A stretch of DNA of 64,000 nucleotides, from the NCBI GenBank assembly GCA_016926955.1, contig JAFGNN010000032.1, forward strand, positions 1 to 64,000, in the 5' to 3' direction. The DNA is from Spirochaetales bacterium (GTDB lineage Bacteria > Spirochaetota > Spirochaetia > Treponematales > UBA12059). Position numbers and translations under genes: made by a program. Shown piece by piece: positions 5,942 to 11,761 of the stretch. The stretch's first letter is position 1, and every line of letters begins with the position of its first letter. The notes beneath the pieces were generated by a model that was not told the DNA's origin, did no database searches, and saw only the letters and a program-made list of their open reading frames with translations.

Positions 5942-6916
5942 TCAGGAGCGGCCGCCGCGCTTCGCTTCGTACATCGCCTCGTCGGCGCGCGCCATAAGGT
6001 CCGCCAGCGAGCTCTGTCCCCCGCGCGGCGCCGCCGCCCAGCCCGCCGAGAAGCGCAGCTTCCAAGGCTTGCCGGAAACGAGGTTCCACTCGTCGACAAG
6101 CGTTCCGAAACGGGCGGCGAGCCGCCGCGCCGACTCTTCGTCGCCGCCCCGGGCCAGGATGGCGAACTCGTCGCCCCCGAGCCGCGCGGCGACGTCCCCG
6201 TCGCGCGTGTTGCGGGCGAGCAGGACCGCGGCCGCCTTCAATGCCTCGTCCCCTTCGGCGTGGCCATACCGGTCGTTGATTTCCTTGAAACGGTCCAGGT
6301 CGACGTAGACCAGCACGGCGCCGCCCGAGCGCGCGTCGGCGAGCGCGGCCGCCGCGGCCTCCTCGAAGCCCCGGCGGTTGCGGAGACCCGTGAGCGGGTC
6401 TGTCAGCGAAGCGTCGAGGAGCCGGCGTTCCCGCTCCTTGAGGGGACCGATGTCCTCGGCGATTCCGATGGTCTTGACCACCGCTCCCGACGCGTCGCGC
6501 AGGAAGGGCGCCTCGCGCCCAAGAAACCAGCTCCAGGTGCCGTCGCCGCGCCGCAGGCGGAATTCGAAATGGGTCTCCGCTCCGTCGGGCAGGGCGGCCA
6601 CCGCCTCGAGGTGGGCGGGCCGACGGGCGGCGTCCTCCGGATGCATGTACGCTTCGAGCGCGGCGCCGTCCGGTGCGGACGCGGCCGTTTCATGGCCCAG
6701 GATGGATTCGAGCGCCCGATTGCGGTACTCGTCGGTCCGCGAGCGGATATCGTGCACGTATACGATGTCCGGCGAAAGCTCGAGCACGCGCGCGAGGAAG
6801 CGCTCCTTCTCGGCCAGCTCGGCATTGAGCCGCGATAGCTCCCGGCGCGCGTTCACCAGCTCCGAATTGATGCGCGAAAGCTCCTCGAGCAGCGCTTCTT
6901 CCGCAGACCCCGTCAT
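5942..6916 (-). CDS. PAS-GGDEF diguanylate cyclase
   Basis: Makes cyclic di-GMP from two GTP. The 324-residue protein has an N-terminal coiled coil (about 5-40), a PAS/PAC region (about 41-165) and a GGDEF domain (about 170-320). The catalytic motif GGDEF is intact at residues 247-251, and an RxxD inhibitory site (R238-D241) lies exactly five residues before it, so both activity and product inhibition are expected. No membrane segment is seen. The ATG at 6916 follows GGAGG and overlaps the stop of the cobalamin-binding gene by four bases (ATGA). The coupling suggests this cyclase is an output of the upstream light/cobalamin sensor. Confidence 0.93.
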   Translation of the reverse strand: MTGSAEEALLEELSRINSELVNARRELSRLNAELAEKERFLARVLELSPDIVYVHDIRSRTDEYRNRALESILGHETAASAPDGAALEAYMHPEDAARRPAHLEAVAALPDGAETHFEFRLRRGDGTWSWFLGREAPFLRDASGAVVKTIGIAEDIGPLKERERRLLDASLTDPLTGLRNRRGFEEAAAAALADARSGGAVLVYVDLDRFKEINDRYGHAEGDEALKAAAVLLARNTRDGDVAARLGGDEFAILARGGDEESARRLAARFGTLVDEWNLVSGKPWKLRFSAGWAAAPRGGQSSLADLMARADEAMYEAKRGGRS

Positions 6917-8001
6917 GAGGACCTCCGGACCAGCCCTTCGGCGGCGCGCACGGCCTCTTCGAAGTCCGAGGCGCACCCGTCCGCGCCCACGGTCCTCCAG
7001 AGCTCCGGCGACACCATGAAGGGAATGCCGCCGACCAGCACGGGAAGCTCGCGCGTACGCTCCTCCGAGCGCAAGGCCGCGATGGCCGCCTCGATCCAGG
7101 GCACGTTGGCGCTCAGGGTCGCCGACAGGGCCACCACGGCGGGTATCACGCGCCCCGCCTCCGCCACGAGGTCGCGGACCGGCAGATCGGCTCCCAGGTA
7201 TCGCGTGTCCCAGCCATCGGACTGGAACCAGTCGGCGATCATGCGGAGCCCCATCTCGTGACGCTCGCCCTGGGCGCAGGCGGCCAGCAGGGTCGGACCG
7301 CCGCGCCGGGAAGCGGCGAAGAGCCGCGGGTAGAAGGACGAGATGATGTACTGGGTGGCCGCTGTCGCGTAATGCTCCTGGGCGACGCTGATCTCTCCCA
7401 GATGCCAGAGTCTTCCGAGCTCGCGCTGGGCCGGTCGCCAGAGCCTCGCGTACAGCTCGCGCACAGGCATGCCACCCGCGGCCAACGATTCCGCGACCGT
7501 TATGGCCCGGTCTCGCTTCCCTTCGAGCAGGGCCGAAAGATAGGCGCCGGCCGCCGCGTTTCCTTCGATATGGCCGGCCAGGTAGCGATTGCCCGCCCCG
7601 CCAGCCCGCGGGTAGTCCGCCACGGCGGCTTCCGTCACGCGTTCGAAGGCCGCGCGCGATCCGGCTTCGAGCAGGGGTCCCGATACCGCGGCCACGGCCC
7701 TGAACGAGCCGAGCACTGCCTCGTCACGGAACCCGAGGCGGTCGAAGAGAGCCTTGAGCCAGGCAAGGTAGTCGGCGAGCGCCTCGCCGCCGGGACTCTG
7801 CGCGGCCTGCGAAAGATAGCGGACGTGGTGGGCCAGGTCGGCCAGGCAATGCGCGCGCGAATCCGGATCGCCGGAACAGGCCGAACCCGGCGCGCCCCCG
7901 TCCAGGACGGAGAGCGCCTCGAGCGCCACGGAGTCGGCGCGGAGGGCGAGCTCCGTGAGGGTCAGCCCGTCCCGACGCGTCCCCGGCCCGTCGGGAATCA
8001 T
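6913..8001 (-). CDS. CarH-like cobalamin-binding photosensor without DNA-binding domain
   Basis: A 362-residue protein whose C-terminal two thirds match the light-sensing part of CarH: a helical cap followed by a B12-binding Rossmann domain. The cap has W199-H200 and, ten residues after the Trp, E209-H210, reproducing the Wx9EH signature and the His next to Trp that ligates cobalt after illumination in CarH. The Rossmann domain has the lower-ligand motif ExHxxG (E246-R-H248-E-M-G251) and later GG and SATLS elements. The N-terminal ~130 residues are helical and are not a MerR helix-turn-helix. It is joined by ATGA overlaps to DUF4349 upstream and to a diguanylate cyclase downstream. A corrinoid-protein role in methyl transfer is the alternative, but no methyltransferase is near. 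Confidence 0.85.
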   Translation of the reverse strand: MIPDGPGTRRDGLTLTELALRADSVALEALSVLDGGAPGSACSGDPDSRAHCLADLAHHVRYLSQAAQSPGGEALADYLAWLKALFDRLGFRDEAVLGSFRAVAAVSGPLLEAGSRAAFERVTEAAVADYPRAGGAGNRYLAGHIEGNAAAGAYLSALLEGKRDRAITVAESLAAGGMPVRELYARLWRPAQRELGRLWHLGEISVAQEHYATAATQYIISSFYPRLFAASRRGGPTLLAACAQGERHEMGLRMIADWFQSDGWDTRYLGADLPVRDLVAEAGRVIPAVVALSATLSANVPWIEAAIAALRSEERTRELPVLVGGIPFMVSPELWRTVGADGCASDFEEAVRAAEGLVRRSS

Positions 8002-8981
8002 GAGGCGGAACCGGTCGGCGGCCCTTCGGCCTTGCCCGGTTTCCGCGGGCTCGCCCGCGTCGGCCCGCCCGCGAGGCGCCAGAGTTTCCGGAGCAGCCCC
8101 ACCTTTCCGACCAGCAGCCACCAGAGCAGGGCCACCACGAGGGCGACGGGCACGCCGTACACCACGAGGCCGACCAGGAAGACGACGAGCGATCCGAGAA
8201 AGCCCGAAAAGGCCCGGAACACCCCTGCGATGCGTTCGCCGAGCTCGGGTTCGTACCCGTCGGCCACCGAGGGCGGCGGCACGAGCTCGAGCTCGACCGT
8301 GGCGTAGTCCACCAGGTCCGCGAGGCCCTTGAGCTCCGAACCCATCCAGTCGATCTCGTTCTGGAGTTCCGCTATCCGCGCTTCCACGTCGAGCAATTCC
8401 TTGATGTCGCGGGTGCGCGCAAGATAGCCGCGGAAAGTGGCCAGGAGCTCGCGCTTGGTCTCGAGCCGCCCTTCCAGGTCGTAGAAGCGCAGGGTCACGT
8501 CCTCGGCGTTCTCGTTGCGGGACAGCACCGTGCCGAGCGGCGCGATGGCGCCGAGCAGTGCGTCGAACGAAGCGGCCGGCACCCGGAGCGTAAGCGAGCG
8601 CGAGTACTCGTCGGCGCTGGTCGAAGCGGCGTAGCCGCCGAGCCGGGCGAGCGTCGCGAGAACTTCGGCCTCGGCCTTCTCCGTATCCGCGACGCGGACC
8701 TGGATCCAGGCGCGTCGCACGAGCTTCCGCTCCGAACCGGCCGTCACGGCGCCGCTCTCGCTTCCGTCGTCCGTCGGGACGGGTCGCGCGGGCGAGTCGG
8801 GTGCGGTTCGCGATGCCACGAGGCCCTTGGCCTCGGCCATGGGCGCAGCTTCGAAATTCATTTCGATGGAAGCGAGGTCGCCCGAGGACGGCGCCTCCTG
8901 CTTCGAGCATGAGAGGGTCGCCGTTACGGCGACGAGCAGCAGCGCCGCGATCGCGGCTTTCATGGCCTTGGTTCTTCGCAT
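7998..8981 (-). CDS. DUF4349 membrane-anchored lipoprotein
   Basis: About 327 residues. The N-terminal hydrophobic segment ends in TLSC-S (lipobox), a long coiled-coil DUF4349 region follows (RKLVRRAWIQVRV... to ...DYATVELELVPP), and a C-terminal hydrophobic region (GVFRAFSGFL through VALVVALLWWLL) is probably a membrane segment. The start at 8981 is chosen because a TAGAAT -10 box ends seven bases before it, matching the leaderless pattern here; a second ATG at 8963 follows AAGG and is possible. The function of the family is unknown. It heads an operon with the cobalamin photosensor and the diguanylate cyclase, so an envelope role in that pathway is plausible. Confidence 0.85.
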   Translation of the reverse strand: MRRTKAMKAAIAALLLVAVTATLSCSKQEAPSSGDLASIEMNFEAAPMAEAKGLVASRTAPDSPARPVPTDDGSESGAVTAGSERKLVRRAWIQVRVADTEKAEAEVLATLARLGGYAASTSADEYSRSLTLRVPAASFDALLGAIAPLGTVLSRNENAEDVTLRFYDLEGRLETKRELLATFRGYLARTRDIKELLDVEARIAELQNEIDWMGSELKGLADLVDYATVELELVPPPSVADGYEPELGERIAGVFRAFSGFLGSLVVFLVGLVVYGVPVALVVALLWWLLVGKVGLLRKLWRLAGGPTRASPRKPGKAEGPPTGSAS

Positions 8982-8988
8982 GAAGCAG

Positions 8989-9017
8989 ATTCTAGCGCCC
9001 GCGACCGTCGCCGTCAT
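8989..9017 (-). promoter_or_regulatory. Leaderless promoter of the DUF4349-photosensor-cyclase operon
   Basis: On the minus strand TAGAAT (8994-8989) lies seven bases before the ATG at 8981, with ATGACG (9017-9012) 17 bases further upstream. The promoter overlaps the 3' end of the hybrid kinase gene. Confidence 0.55.
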
Positions 9018-11472
9018 TCCCGAAACGGAGCGAAAGCGCTTCGTCCAGGCTTTCATCGGTCACCGGCTTCGGCAGAAAACCGTCGACGCCCTCAGGCGGC
9101 CCATCGAAACCCGCTTCCTGCGGACGTTCCGCCGAGGAGAGCAGGACCAGCGCCGGGGGGCGGCTTTCGCGCCGCTCGATGCCGCGCAGTTCCCGGGCCA
9201 CCACGGTTCCGTCGCGATCCGGCAGGTACCGGTCCAGAACGACCAGTTCGAAGCTCCGCGAACCGAACGCCTCTAGCGCCTCCGCCCCCGTGCCGCCTTC
9301 GACCACCGCAGCGCCGCGGGCGCGGAGCCAATGGGTCATGACCAGGCGCGAAATGTCGTCATCGTCGGCCACCAGGGCGGATACCCCTTCCAGGCGCTGT
9401 GACACCCGGGCGGCGGCGCCCGCGTTCGCTTCGTCCGTCGTCCGCGGGGTAGCCTTCGCGCCCCGCGAGAGTTTCGCGCCCTTCCCCGCCCGTCTTTCGA
9501 GCTCGAAAGGCAGGGTGAAGGCGAATATGGAGCCTCCGCCTTCCCGCGGCTCGTAATCGACCGAGCCACCCATGGCCTCGACCACGCTCCGCACGATGGA
9601 CAGCCCGAGACCGTGGCTCGACGTTCCGTCTCCGAGGGTTCCCGAGGCCGACGCGAAGGGAATCCATATCTCCTTGGCGCGGGCGGGAGCTATCCCGATA
9701 CCCGAATCGGAGACCCGTCCGTCGACGACGAGGCGTCCGTCTTCCTGGCGCGTCGAAAACCCGACCTCGATGCCGCCGTCCTTCGTGTACTTGATCGCGT
9801 TGCCCACCAGGTTGGCCAGAACCTGCCTGAAACGGGGCGCGTCTCCGAGCACAGTGCGATCGAGCCCGGCATCGCTCGAGATCCCGAAAGCAAGGCCCTT
9901 CCGGCGCGCCTGGATGGAGAAGGGCTCGAGGACGGCCACGGCCTCGCGGGAGGGTACGAAGGGCGCCGAACGCACCTCGGGCGCGCCGGTGGCCGCCGCG
10001 CAGTCGAGAAGGTCGTTCACCAGCTCGAGCAGCCTGTCGATCGAGGCGCGCGCCATCGTCGCGGTCCGCGCGAGCAGCTCGGGCGATTCCGAGGCCGCGT
10101 CGAACGCCGAGCGAAGCGCGGCCAGCGGCGCCTTGAGTTCATGCCCCATGAAGGCCAGGTAGGCTTCGCTTTTCCGCATGAGCCGCTCGGCGGTCGCCTT
10201 CGCCTCCGCCAGCTCGACGCGCCGGTTCTGGTACGCGCCGGCCATCGCCACCAGGCTGTCCCGCAATTCGCGGATTTCGAGCACGCCGCCGGTCGGCCAG
10301 CGAACCGTCACCTCGCCGCCTTCCCCGCCGGAAGCGGTGGCCTGGGCCCGCTCAGCGGCGAGCCGGAGCCGCTCCAGGTCCTTCGCGAAACGCGAGGCGA
10401 GCACGGTGGCGATCATGGCGGAGAAGGTCATCCACACCAGCCCCGCGGCGAACAGGTAGCCGACCCTGCTCAGCAGCGACGCGATCCGCGGCCCGAACGG
10501 CGCGCGCACCTCGAGCGTCCTGTCGGCGTCAAGCGTCAGCTCGGCCAGCACCACCGCGCGCTTCCACTTGACCAGGGGATTGGCGAGGTGTGGATCGCTC
10601 CTGATCGAAGCCCGCTCGCCCCGGTGAAGGATCGCCCCGGACGCGAGGTTGCCGAGCGCGGGCCAGCCCGGGCTCTGCCAGGCGGTACGCGGGTCGCTCG
10701 AGCGGATACCGGCTTCGAACCCGGTTCGCGAAAGGGTCGCCGCGACGGCGAGATCGATGCCCCCGGAACGGTGTTCCTCGAGCAGGATGGACAGGATCGT
10801 CGCCGCGCCCTCTTCCGACTCGCCGACGATGCGTCCGCGCTCCTGTCCCGCATAGACGAGCACGCCTGAAACCAGGGGGATGGCGAGCGAGGCGTGCAGG
10901 AGTATGGTCAGCGCCGAGCGAGCTCCGGCCTGGCGCGGCCTCGAGCGTCCCTCCGCGTAGCGCTCGTAGATCCGGTAGGGAATGACTGCGATGGCGCACG
11001 CGATCGAGGCGTTGAACCCCTGCTTCGTGGCCGACGCGAACACGCTCTCGGCGTCCATGCCGCCGACGTTCTGGTACAGCAGGGCGACCAGGGGCGCGCC
11101 GATCAGGGTCCAGTACGCCGGCCCGGCCAGCAGCACCGACTCCTGCTGGCGCCGCGATGAAAGGAAGGAGATCAGGAGCCCCTCGAGGAAGGCGCTTGGC
11201 AAGGCCCAGGGATGGCTCCAGAGCGCGAGTGTCGGGAGCGCGGCGACGAGGGGCCCCAGCGCGCCCGCGGGCCAAGGCATGATCATCGCCGCGAAAGCGC
11301 CGAAAACCCCTCCCGCCAGGAGCTGAATCCCGAATCCCAGGTCGAAGGCGAAGGTCGCGTTGAGGGCGGCTCCCAGGAACGCGACCAGGATACCCCCGAT
11401 TGCTTCGAACAGAGTCCGGAGCCGCCCTACCCTGCCCCGCGTCAGGGCGGCTCTCGGAACGGATAAGATCAT
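8992..11472 (-). CDS. Hybrid sensor histidine kinase with C-terminal receiver
   Basis: An 826-residue membrane kinase. Residues ~20-170 hold about six hydrophobic segments, two further segments near 187-208 and 333-358 flank an extracytoplasmic region, a HAMP-like linker follows, then the kinase core: H-box with H444 (FMGHELKAPL), N-box LVGNAIKYT, G1 DSGIGI and G2 GLGLSI. The C-terminal receiver (about 696-815) has the acidic cluster ADDDD and phospho-acceptor D747. The start at 11472 (MILSVP) has a TATCAT box six bases upstream and no ribosome site; a longer frame to 11613 is less likely. It ends 11 bases before DUF4349 on the same strand, so the two blocks may be functionally linked. Confidence 0.92.
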   Translation of the reverse strand: MILSVPRAALTRGRVGRLRTLFEAIGGILVAFLGAALNATFAFDLGFGIQLLAGGVFGAFAAMIMPWPAGALGPLVAALPTLALWSHPWALPSAFLEGLLISFLSSRRQQESVLLAGPAYWTLIGAPLVALLYQNVGGMDAESVFASATKQGFNASIACAIAVIPYRIYERYAEGRSRPRQAGARSALTILLHASLAIPLVSGVLVYAGQERGRIVGESEEGAATILSILLEEHRSGGIDLAVAATLSRTGFEAGIRSSDPRTAWQSPGWPALGNLASGAILHRGERASIRSDPHLANPLVKWKRAVVLAELTLDADRTLEVRAPFGPRIASLLSRVGYLFAAGLVWMTFSAMIATVLASRFAKDLERLRLAAERAQATASGGEGGEVTVRWPTGGVLEIRELRDSLVAMAGAYQNRRVELAEAKATAERLMRKSEAYLAFMGHELKAPLAALRSAFDAASESPELLARTATMARASIDRLLELVNDLLDCAAATGAPEVRSAPFVPSREAVAVLEPFSIQARRKGLAFGISSDAGLDRTVLGDAPRFRQVLANLVGNAIKYTKDGGIEVGFSTRQEDGRLVVDGRVSDSGIGIAPARAKEIWIPFASASGTLGDGTSSHGLGLSIVRSVVEAMGGSVDYEPREGGGSIFAFTLPFELERRAGKGAKLSRGAKATPRTTDEANAGAAARVSQRLEGVSALVADDDDISRLVMTHWLRARGAAVVEGGTGAEALEAFGSRSFELVVLDRYLPDRDGTVVARELRGIERRESRPPALVLLSSAERPQEAGFDGPPEGVDGFLPKPVTDESLDEALSLRFGNDGDGRGR

Positions 11473-11478
11473 GTAACC

Positions 11479-11507
11479 ATGATAGAGCCACGCTCGGCAT
11501 CGCGCCA
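11479..11507 (-). promoter_or_regulatory. Leaderless promoter of the hybrid kinase gene
   Basis: On the minus strand TATCAT (11484-11479) ends six bases before the ATG at 11472. A weak -35 (TGGCGC, 11507-11502) lies 17 bases upstream. No ribosome site is present. Confidence 0.45.
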
Positions 11508-11527
11508 GTGCCGGGGCGTCGCGCCTC

Positions 11528-11556
11528 TTTACAAAGTCGACGGACCGCGCTATATT
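11528..11556 (+). promoter_or_regulatory. Strong sigma70-type promoter for the RRM gene
   Basis: TTTACA (11528-11533), an ideal 17-base spacer, then TATATT (11551-11556). It is the best consensus match near the RRM gene, but the gene starts at 11829, so the mRNA would carry a leader of about 265 bases. Confidence 0.68.
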
Positions 11557-11761
11557 GTCAGCGAGTGCGAGAAACGCCAGACCGAGAGTGACGACTTTCC
11601 TGTAGTTGACCATCCTGCGAACTTCCTGAGACGCGACTCCTTCGGGAGCCGCTCACGAACACCGACGTGGTTGCCTTCAGCATCGAGTAAAGACCGTATC
11701 GCTCCGTCTACCAGGTTCTCCGCTCGCCCCGCAAGCCCGGATCGTCCGGGAAACGGGAAAG

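Follow-up and report, generated by a model that had tools for sequence, protein, structure and literature searches.

A stand-alone photocobilin gene paired with a coil-bearing diguanylate cyclase gene in a spirochaete: a candidate split B12 light sensor

Photocobilins combine a B12-binding photoreceptor module with a photoglobin, and Zhang et al. (2024) found that a photocobilin-cyclase fusion is activated more than 10-fold by light and that isolated photocobilins regulate a cyclase in trans (PMC10979010). The same study mentions both possible orders of the two domains and leaves open the targets of stand-alone photocobilins, with in-trans control seen only with isolated domains (PMC10979010). 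Here we analyze a gene for such a stand-alone protein, at positions 6913-8001 (minus strand) of a 64,000-nucleotide stretch of Spirochaetales contig JAFGNN010000032.1 (the window), together with the diguanylate cyclase gene that follows it. We think it likely that the sensor is a stand-alone photocobilin that responds to light through adenosylcobalamin (AdoCbl) and acts in trans through a coil at the start of its partner. An earlier note on this DNA had set the protein against known relatives that act on DNA, and had proposed a B12-based route from light to a second messenger. The first point is outdated, since photocobilins regulate a cyclase, and the route from light via B12 to cyclic di-GMP (c-di-GMP) is not new in kind because it was shown by Zhang et al. 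2024 (PMC10979010).

Domains and signature residues of the sensor

The C-terminal part of the sensor (6913..7587, minus strand) is an AdoCbl photoreceptor module, identified by Pfam, structure and invariant residues: a four-helix cap at residues ~154-220 (B12-binding_2, 154-220, 1.4e-11) precedes a Rossmann B12-binding domain at 237-353 (B12-binding, 5.5e-19). Pfam finds no MerR domain in the protein, as the earlier note had said. That note had also listed W199, H200, E209, H210 and H248, with ten residues from W to E, as the light-sensing set, and every one of these is borne out: the sensor carries G196xxW199, H200, E209-H210 (W-x9-EH), G245xxH248 with the lower ligand in E246xH248, and G270xxxP274. 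These include all four elements (GxxW, EH, GxxH and GxxxP) of the published signature that separates light-responsive B12 domains from other B12 domains (PMC11796333). The comparison covers 32 relatives, 19 from non-spirochaete and 13 from spirochaete genomes (the window among the latter), which together span at least eight phyla and include archaea. The W, E, H, lower-ligand H and GxxxP residues are invariant throughout, so the signature is not due to chance. The equivalent of H200, which serves the bis-His light state of CarH, is kept across most of the spirochaete clade.

The N-terminal half (residues ~1-138; 7588..8001, minus strand) is a photoglobin, that is, a phycobiliprotein-like domain. 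In the PDB, a profile of this domain by itself finds SasPcob (8j2x, 5.2e-12) and AbPcob (8j2y, 1.7e-9), in both cases over the globin domain, as well as phycocyanin alpha (2vjr, 3.2e-9), and the full-length profile gives the same photoglobin matches. We base the assignment on these matches because the fold search with the full-length sensor model ranks the B12 part only. In that model the N-terminal half forms five helices with a predicted local distance difference test (pLDDT) score mostly at or above 90; a model of the domain folded alone from a single sequence was poor (pLDDT 54.5) and was not used. In the profile alignment D55 corresponds to SasPcob Asp270, the main biliverdin contact (PMC10979010), and W81 to Trp296, a mapping read from printed alignments with a numbering offset of 6 set by Trp61 and His108. 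Both the Asp and the Trp of the bilin pocket are thus present, and C52 aligns with the chromophore-attachment cysteine of phycocyanin alpha (KCARD to HCLAD).

The closest solved relatives, by sequence and by structure, are the photocobilins 8j2w, 8j2x and 8j2y. VIA-align of the sensor model gives Z 26.5 with 8j2y (210 residues aligned, 2.1 Å) and 26.0 with 8j2w. The superposition on CarH that the earlier note had suggested also succeeds, with Z ~20 for TtCarH as against ~26 for the photocobilins. Because of this proximity and the N-terminal photoglobin, the sequence features classify the sensor as a stand-alone photocobilin with the photoglobin first, the less-studied domain order. We therefore rejected the description of the protein as CarH minus its DNA-binding domain: the earlier note was right that the B12 domain is of the AdoCbl-photoreceptor kind, but the protein is not a CarH (69 bits with the NCBIfam CarH model against a cut-off of 400), and its photoglobin half had been overlooked.

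The sensor-output pair and the partner coil

Directly downstream, at 5942..6916 on the minus strand, lies the output partner P0002, a PAS_3 and GGDEF diguanylate cyclase (Pfam 3.6e-40, with a motif check). Its GGDEF sequence at 247-251 and RDGD at 238-241, with five residues between them, supply the GG(D/E)EF active site and the RxxD inhibitory site expected of an active diguanylate cyclase, so that by its motifs P0002 is predicted to be active; the earlier note's statement that both sites are intact agrees with this. The arrangement recurs widely. Of the 32 relatives, 15 have a GGDEF gene and 13 a histidine kinase gene next after the sensor gene in the same orientation; in L024 sensor and kinase form one fused protein, and the contig of L020 ends within a partner gene that carries the coil. 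With truncated partner and kinase fusion counted, the pairing holds in 30 of 32. The remaining two, L017 and L025, have none of a cyclase, a kinase or a fusion beside the sensor. Several pairs share a 4-base overlap between sensor and partner. The nine closest sensors from spirochaetes group in a single clade (support 100/99), all with cyclases, while on the whole sensor tree, which has long branches and draws on incomplete contigs of metagenome-assembled genomes (MAGs), the output type switches at least five times and the coil is retained. Such a natural split pair of sensor and output looks new, and the cyclase encoded by the next gene is probably switched by the sensor.

The partner coil is a segment of 34 residues, LEELSRINSELVNARRELSRLNAELAEKERFLAR, at the start of the cyclase (6788..6889, minus strand), recognized by matches to a coil model. 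Its consensus, LxELSRLNNELVNxQRELxxxNxEL, occurs in nearly all partners; it was not detected in the L009 partner and is weak in that of L071. The coil precedes PAS-GGDEF, GGDEF, PAS-kinase or kinase domains alike, and in the fused protein of L024 it separates the B12 domain from the kinase. In the minimal partners it is followed by GGDEF alone (L061-L063; 193 aa in L061) or by a kinase alone (L068, 281 aa), and the coil is therefore their only obvious input. We infer that the sensor docks on the coil.

The association of the coil with photocobilins is specific. Across 1619 neighbourhood open reading frames, coil models built from spirochaetes alone recover the other partners, and the reverse also holds, with no coil match beyond the genes that follow the sensor. 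Since the training set of the first coil model included several spirochaete sequences, the test leaving spirochaetes out matters: the model trained without them still recovers the window coil (4e-6), and in 247 Spirochaetota its top four genomes are the four that hold the photocobilin family at E < 1e-100. Two of these were previously unseen, and in them the next gene is a coil-kinase (L106) or a coil-cyclase (L107). Genome-wide, 15 of 19 cross-phylum genomes contain one coil each, always beside the photocobilin (15/15); 11 of 39 spirochaete relatives have clear matches, again always beside it, and one more has a marginal match (E 0.005). The host genome itself (G000; 3.4 Mb, 98% complete) matches the coil model at one place only (1.2e-14), despite about 26 GGDEF loci. 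The expectation that this NNEL-QREL coil would be a generic kinase coil was rejected for these genomes: apart from three weak matches discussed below, genome-wide searches find the coil beside a photocobilin. A dedicated coil of this kind, present once per genome and next to the photocobilin, looks new.

Three further observations concern individual pairs. An Anaerolineae genome (L011, 4539-6933) has two tandem photocobilin genes ahead of a single GGDEF gene. In a Clostridia MAG (L015, 5782-8126) the kinase partner is apparently split by an in-frame stop, with a repetitive, KDNPD-rich stretch before it. Many cross-phylum partners (L010, L014, L016, L020 and L022) share a similar, apparently PAS-like domain of ~100 residues upstream of the coil, without a Pfam match.

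The pair belongs to a cluster of four genes on the minus strand, running from 11613 to 5942. A membrane hybrid histidine kinase with a receiver domain (HisKA-HATPase-RR by Pfam; 8992..11613) comes first, and the coil scan finds no 34-residue coil in it. It is followed after 10 bases, from stop to start, by a DUF4349 lipoprotein gene (7998..8981; Pfam 4.2e-52), then by the sensor and the cyclase. ATGA overlaps at 7998-8001 (DUF4349/sensor) and 6913-6916 (sensor/cyclase) join the last three genes, and the coordinates and Pfam agree with the earlier note's account of this coupling and of the upstream kinase. Conservation of the four-gene order, raised in that note, holds within the genus, in 3 of 3 available species (window, L007, L008); beyond it only the sensor and output pair is conserved. 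The hybrid kinase and DUF4349 genes are thus genus-specific neighbours, and the evolutionary unit is the sensor with its output gene. Within the genus only, the DUF4349 lipoprotein gene is translationally coupled to the photocobilin gene. The nearest named relatives are Spirochaetes MAGs. Control of the cluster by a riboswitch was rejected, since the window has no Rfam match to a cobalamin or c-di-GMP riboswitch.

Proposed mechanism and alternatives

A PduO-type adenosyltransferase in the host genome makes a supply of AdoCbl plausible, and about 26 GGDEF loci and 4 PilZ receptors indicate well-developed c-di-GMP signalling. In the dark, the sensor would hold AdoCbl through W199, E209-H210 and, as lower ligand, H248, and would form a head-to-tail dimer, as in CarH and SasPcob. 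Green light would break the Co-C bond and reposition the adenosyl-pocket loop, after which H200, as in CarH, may replace the adenosyl group and serve as the second axial ligand. In this altered state the sensor would change its grip, in trans, on the cyclase's 34-residue coil, altering GGDEF dimerisation and hence c-di-GMP output. By analogy with AbDPcob, light more likely activates than inhibits the cyclase.

This leaves a puzzle: how can a bilin pocket be conserved where a route for making bilins is not detected in searches for heme oxygenase and ferrochelatase? Of the 33 genomes with the family, 32, including the host, lack heme oxygenase (PF01126) in searches that did not extend to other heme-degrading enzymes or to bilin uptake; ferrochelatase is absent from 12 of 12 spirochaetes tested, the host among them, and from most other genomes. 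In this lineage the photoglobin probably functions with no biliverdin made by the cell itself, which would make AdoCbl the chromophore, and the persistence of bilin-pocket residues in genomes without heme oxygenase (in spirochaetes, also without ferrochelatase) looks new.

Several points weigh against an AdoCbl photosensor acting in trans. If heme oxygenase and ferrochelatase are lacking, the host may be left with only half of the chemistry of photocobilins; nothing indicates that the host lives in light, and many relatives belong to mostly anaerobic groups. A separate signal might enter through the PAS domain, and the coil might be a structural partner that the sensor always requires, with no control by light. 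Finally, the three weak coil matches lie in ~1080-aa proteins of G238, G260 and G277 that are not beside such a photocobilin.

The best-surviving alternative, which we regard as unlikely, is that the pair senses AdoCbl availability, or oxygen or redox state via the corrinoid, with photolysis incidental. The frequency of the family in MAGs named Anaerolineae, methanogens, Clostridia and Halanaerobium is consistent with it, as are the undetected bilin supply and the finding that AdoCbl binding alone lowers the dark cyclase activity of AbDPcob (PMC10979010). The residues W, E-H and lower-ligand H, invariant in 32 proteins, are however those of the light-domain signature (PMC11796333), and the retention of H200 in most of the spirochaete clade also argues for light. 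A photocobilin with two chromophores, AdoCbl and a bilin that is scavenged or otherwise made, is less probable still: the equivalents of Asp270 and Trp296, and C52 at the attachment position, fit a bound bilin, but the near-complete absence of PF01126, and that of ferrochelatase in the spirochaetes, speak against it within the limits of the searches given above. Least credible is the competing role named in the earlier note, that of a corrinoid methyl carrier serving a methyltransferase: the fold is common to MtmC/MtbC carriers, and a related genus has another corrinoid protein encoded divergently beside the pair, with a URO-D-type gene next in L109, but the sensor carries the full light signature, scores only 30-48 bits with the NCBIfam MtmC/MtbC/MtgC models (cut-offs 310-370), and lies in a cluster without a methyltransferase gene, and in nearly every relative a cyclase or kinase gene follows the sensor gene. 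As to those flanking genes, the protein at L109 3209-4500 is a different corrinoid protein without the EH motif, a second B12 protein is likewise placed in L062 and L063, and the URO-D-type gene is of a kind found with corrinoid methyltransferases.

Comparison with known systems

An AdoCbl photosensor acting in trans would make these pairs natural matched sets of sensor and output with a likely docking element, the 34-residue coil. The minimal partner of coil and GGDEF (about 190 aa) renders the mechanism directly testable, and could serve as a portable green-light switch. More tentatively, and with somewhat more doubt than confidence, we suggest that the pairs represent an undescribed split photosensory system of bacteria and archaea, in which a once-per-genome coil links a stand-alone sensor to interchangeable cyclase or kinase outputs, the sensor works on AdoCbl alone and the photoglobin is a bilin-free relay, in hosts without heme or biliverdin synthesis.

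It is useful to set the locus beside the described systems. Phycobiliproteins and the BBAG bilin-binding globins belong to the same fold family as the N-terminal domain and have the same bilin-pocket positions; here the N-terminal domain is fused to a B12 domain, in a host in which heme oxygenase PF01126 and ferrochelatase were not found. AerR (7TE2) is likewise a stand-alone B12 domain and works by protein-protein contact, but it targets the repressor CrtJ, lacks a photoglobin and matches the sensor sequence weakly. CarH of Thermus thermophilus (5C8A, 5C8D-F) shares the AdoCbl-pocket residues, including the W-H pair (its H132 is the equivalent of H200), and the lower-ligand His, whereas the present sensor has no MerR domain, has an additional photoglobin and suggests no DNA target. 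SasPcob, the stand-alone photocobilin of Saccharothrix syringae (8J2W/8J2X; PMC10979010), has the same B12 module and photoglobin, the W-x9-EH motif, the ExH lower ligand and the biliverdin-contacting Asp and Trp. It differs in that its photoglobin comes last rather than first, its B12 module is 33-34% identical, it has Gln in place of H200, and no cyclase partner gene is reported for it. AbDPcob (sensor 8J2Y) likewise joins an AdoCbl photoreceptor to a GGDEF output. Its bilin-site residue is His where the sensor has Asp, and what is a single polypeptide there is here divided between two genes and accompanied by a conserved coil.
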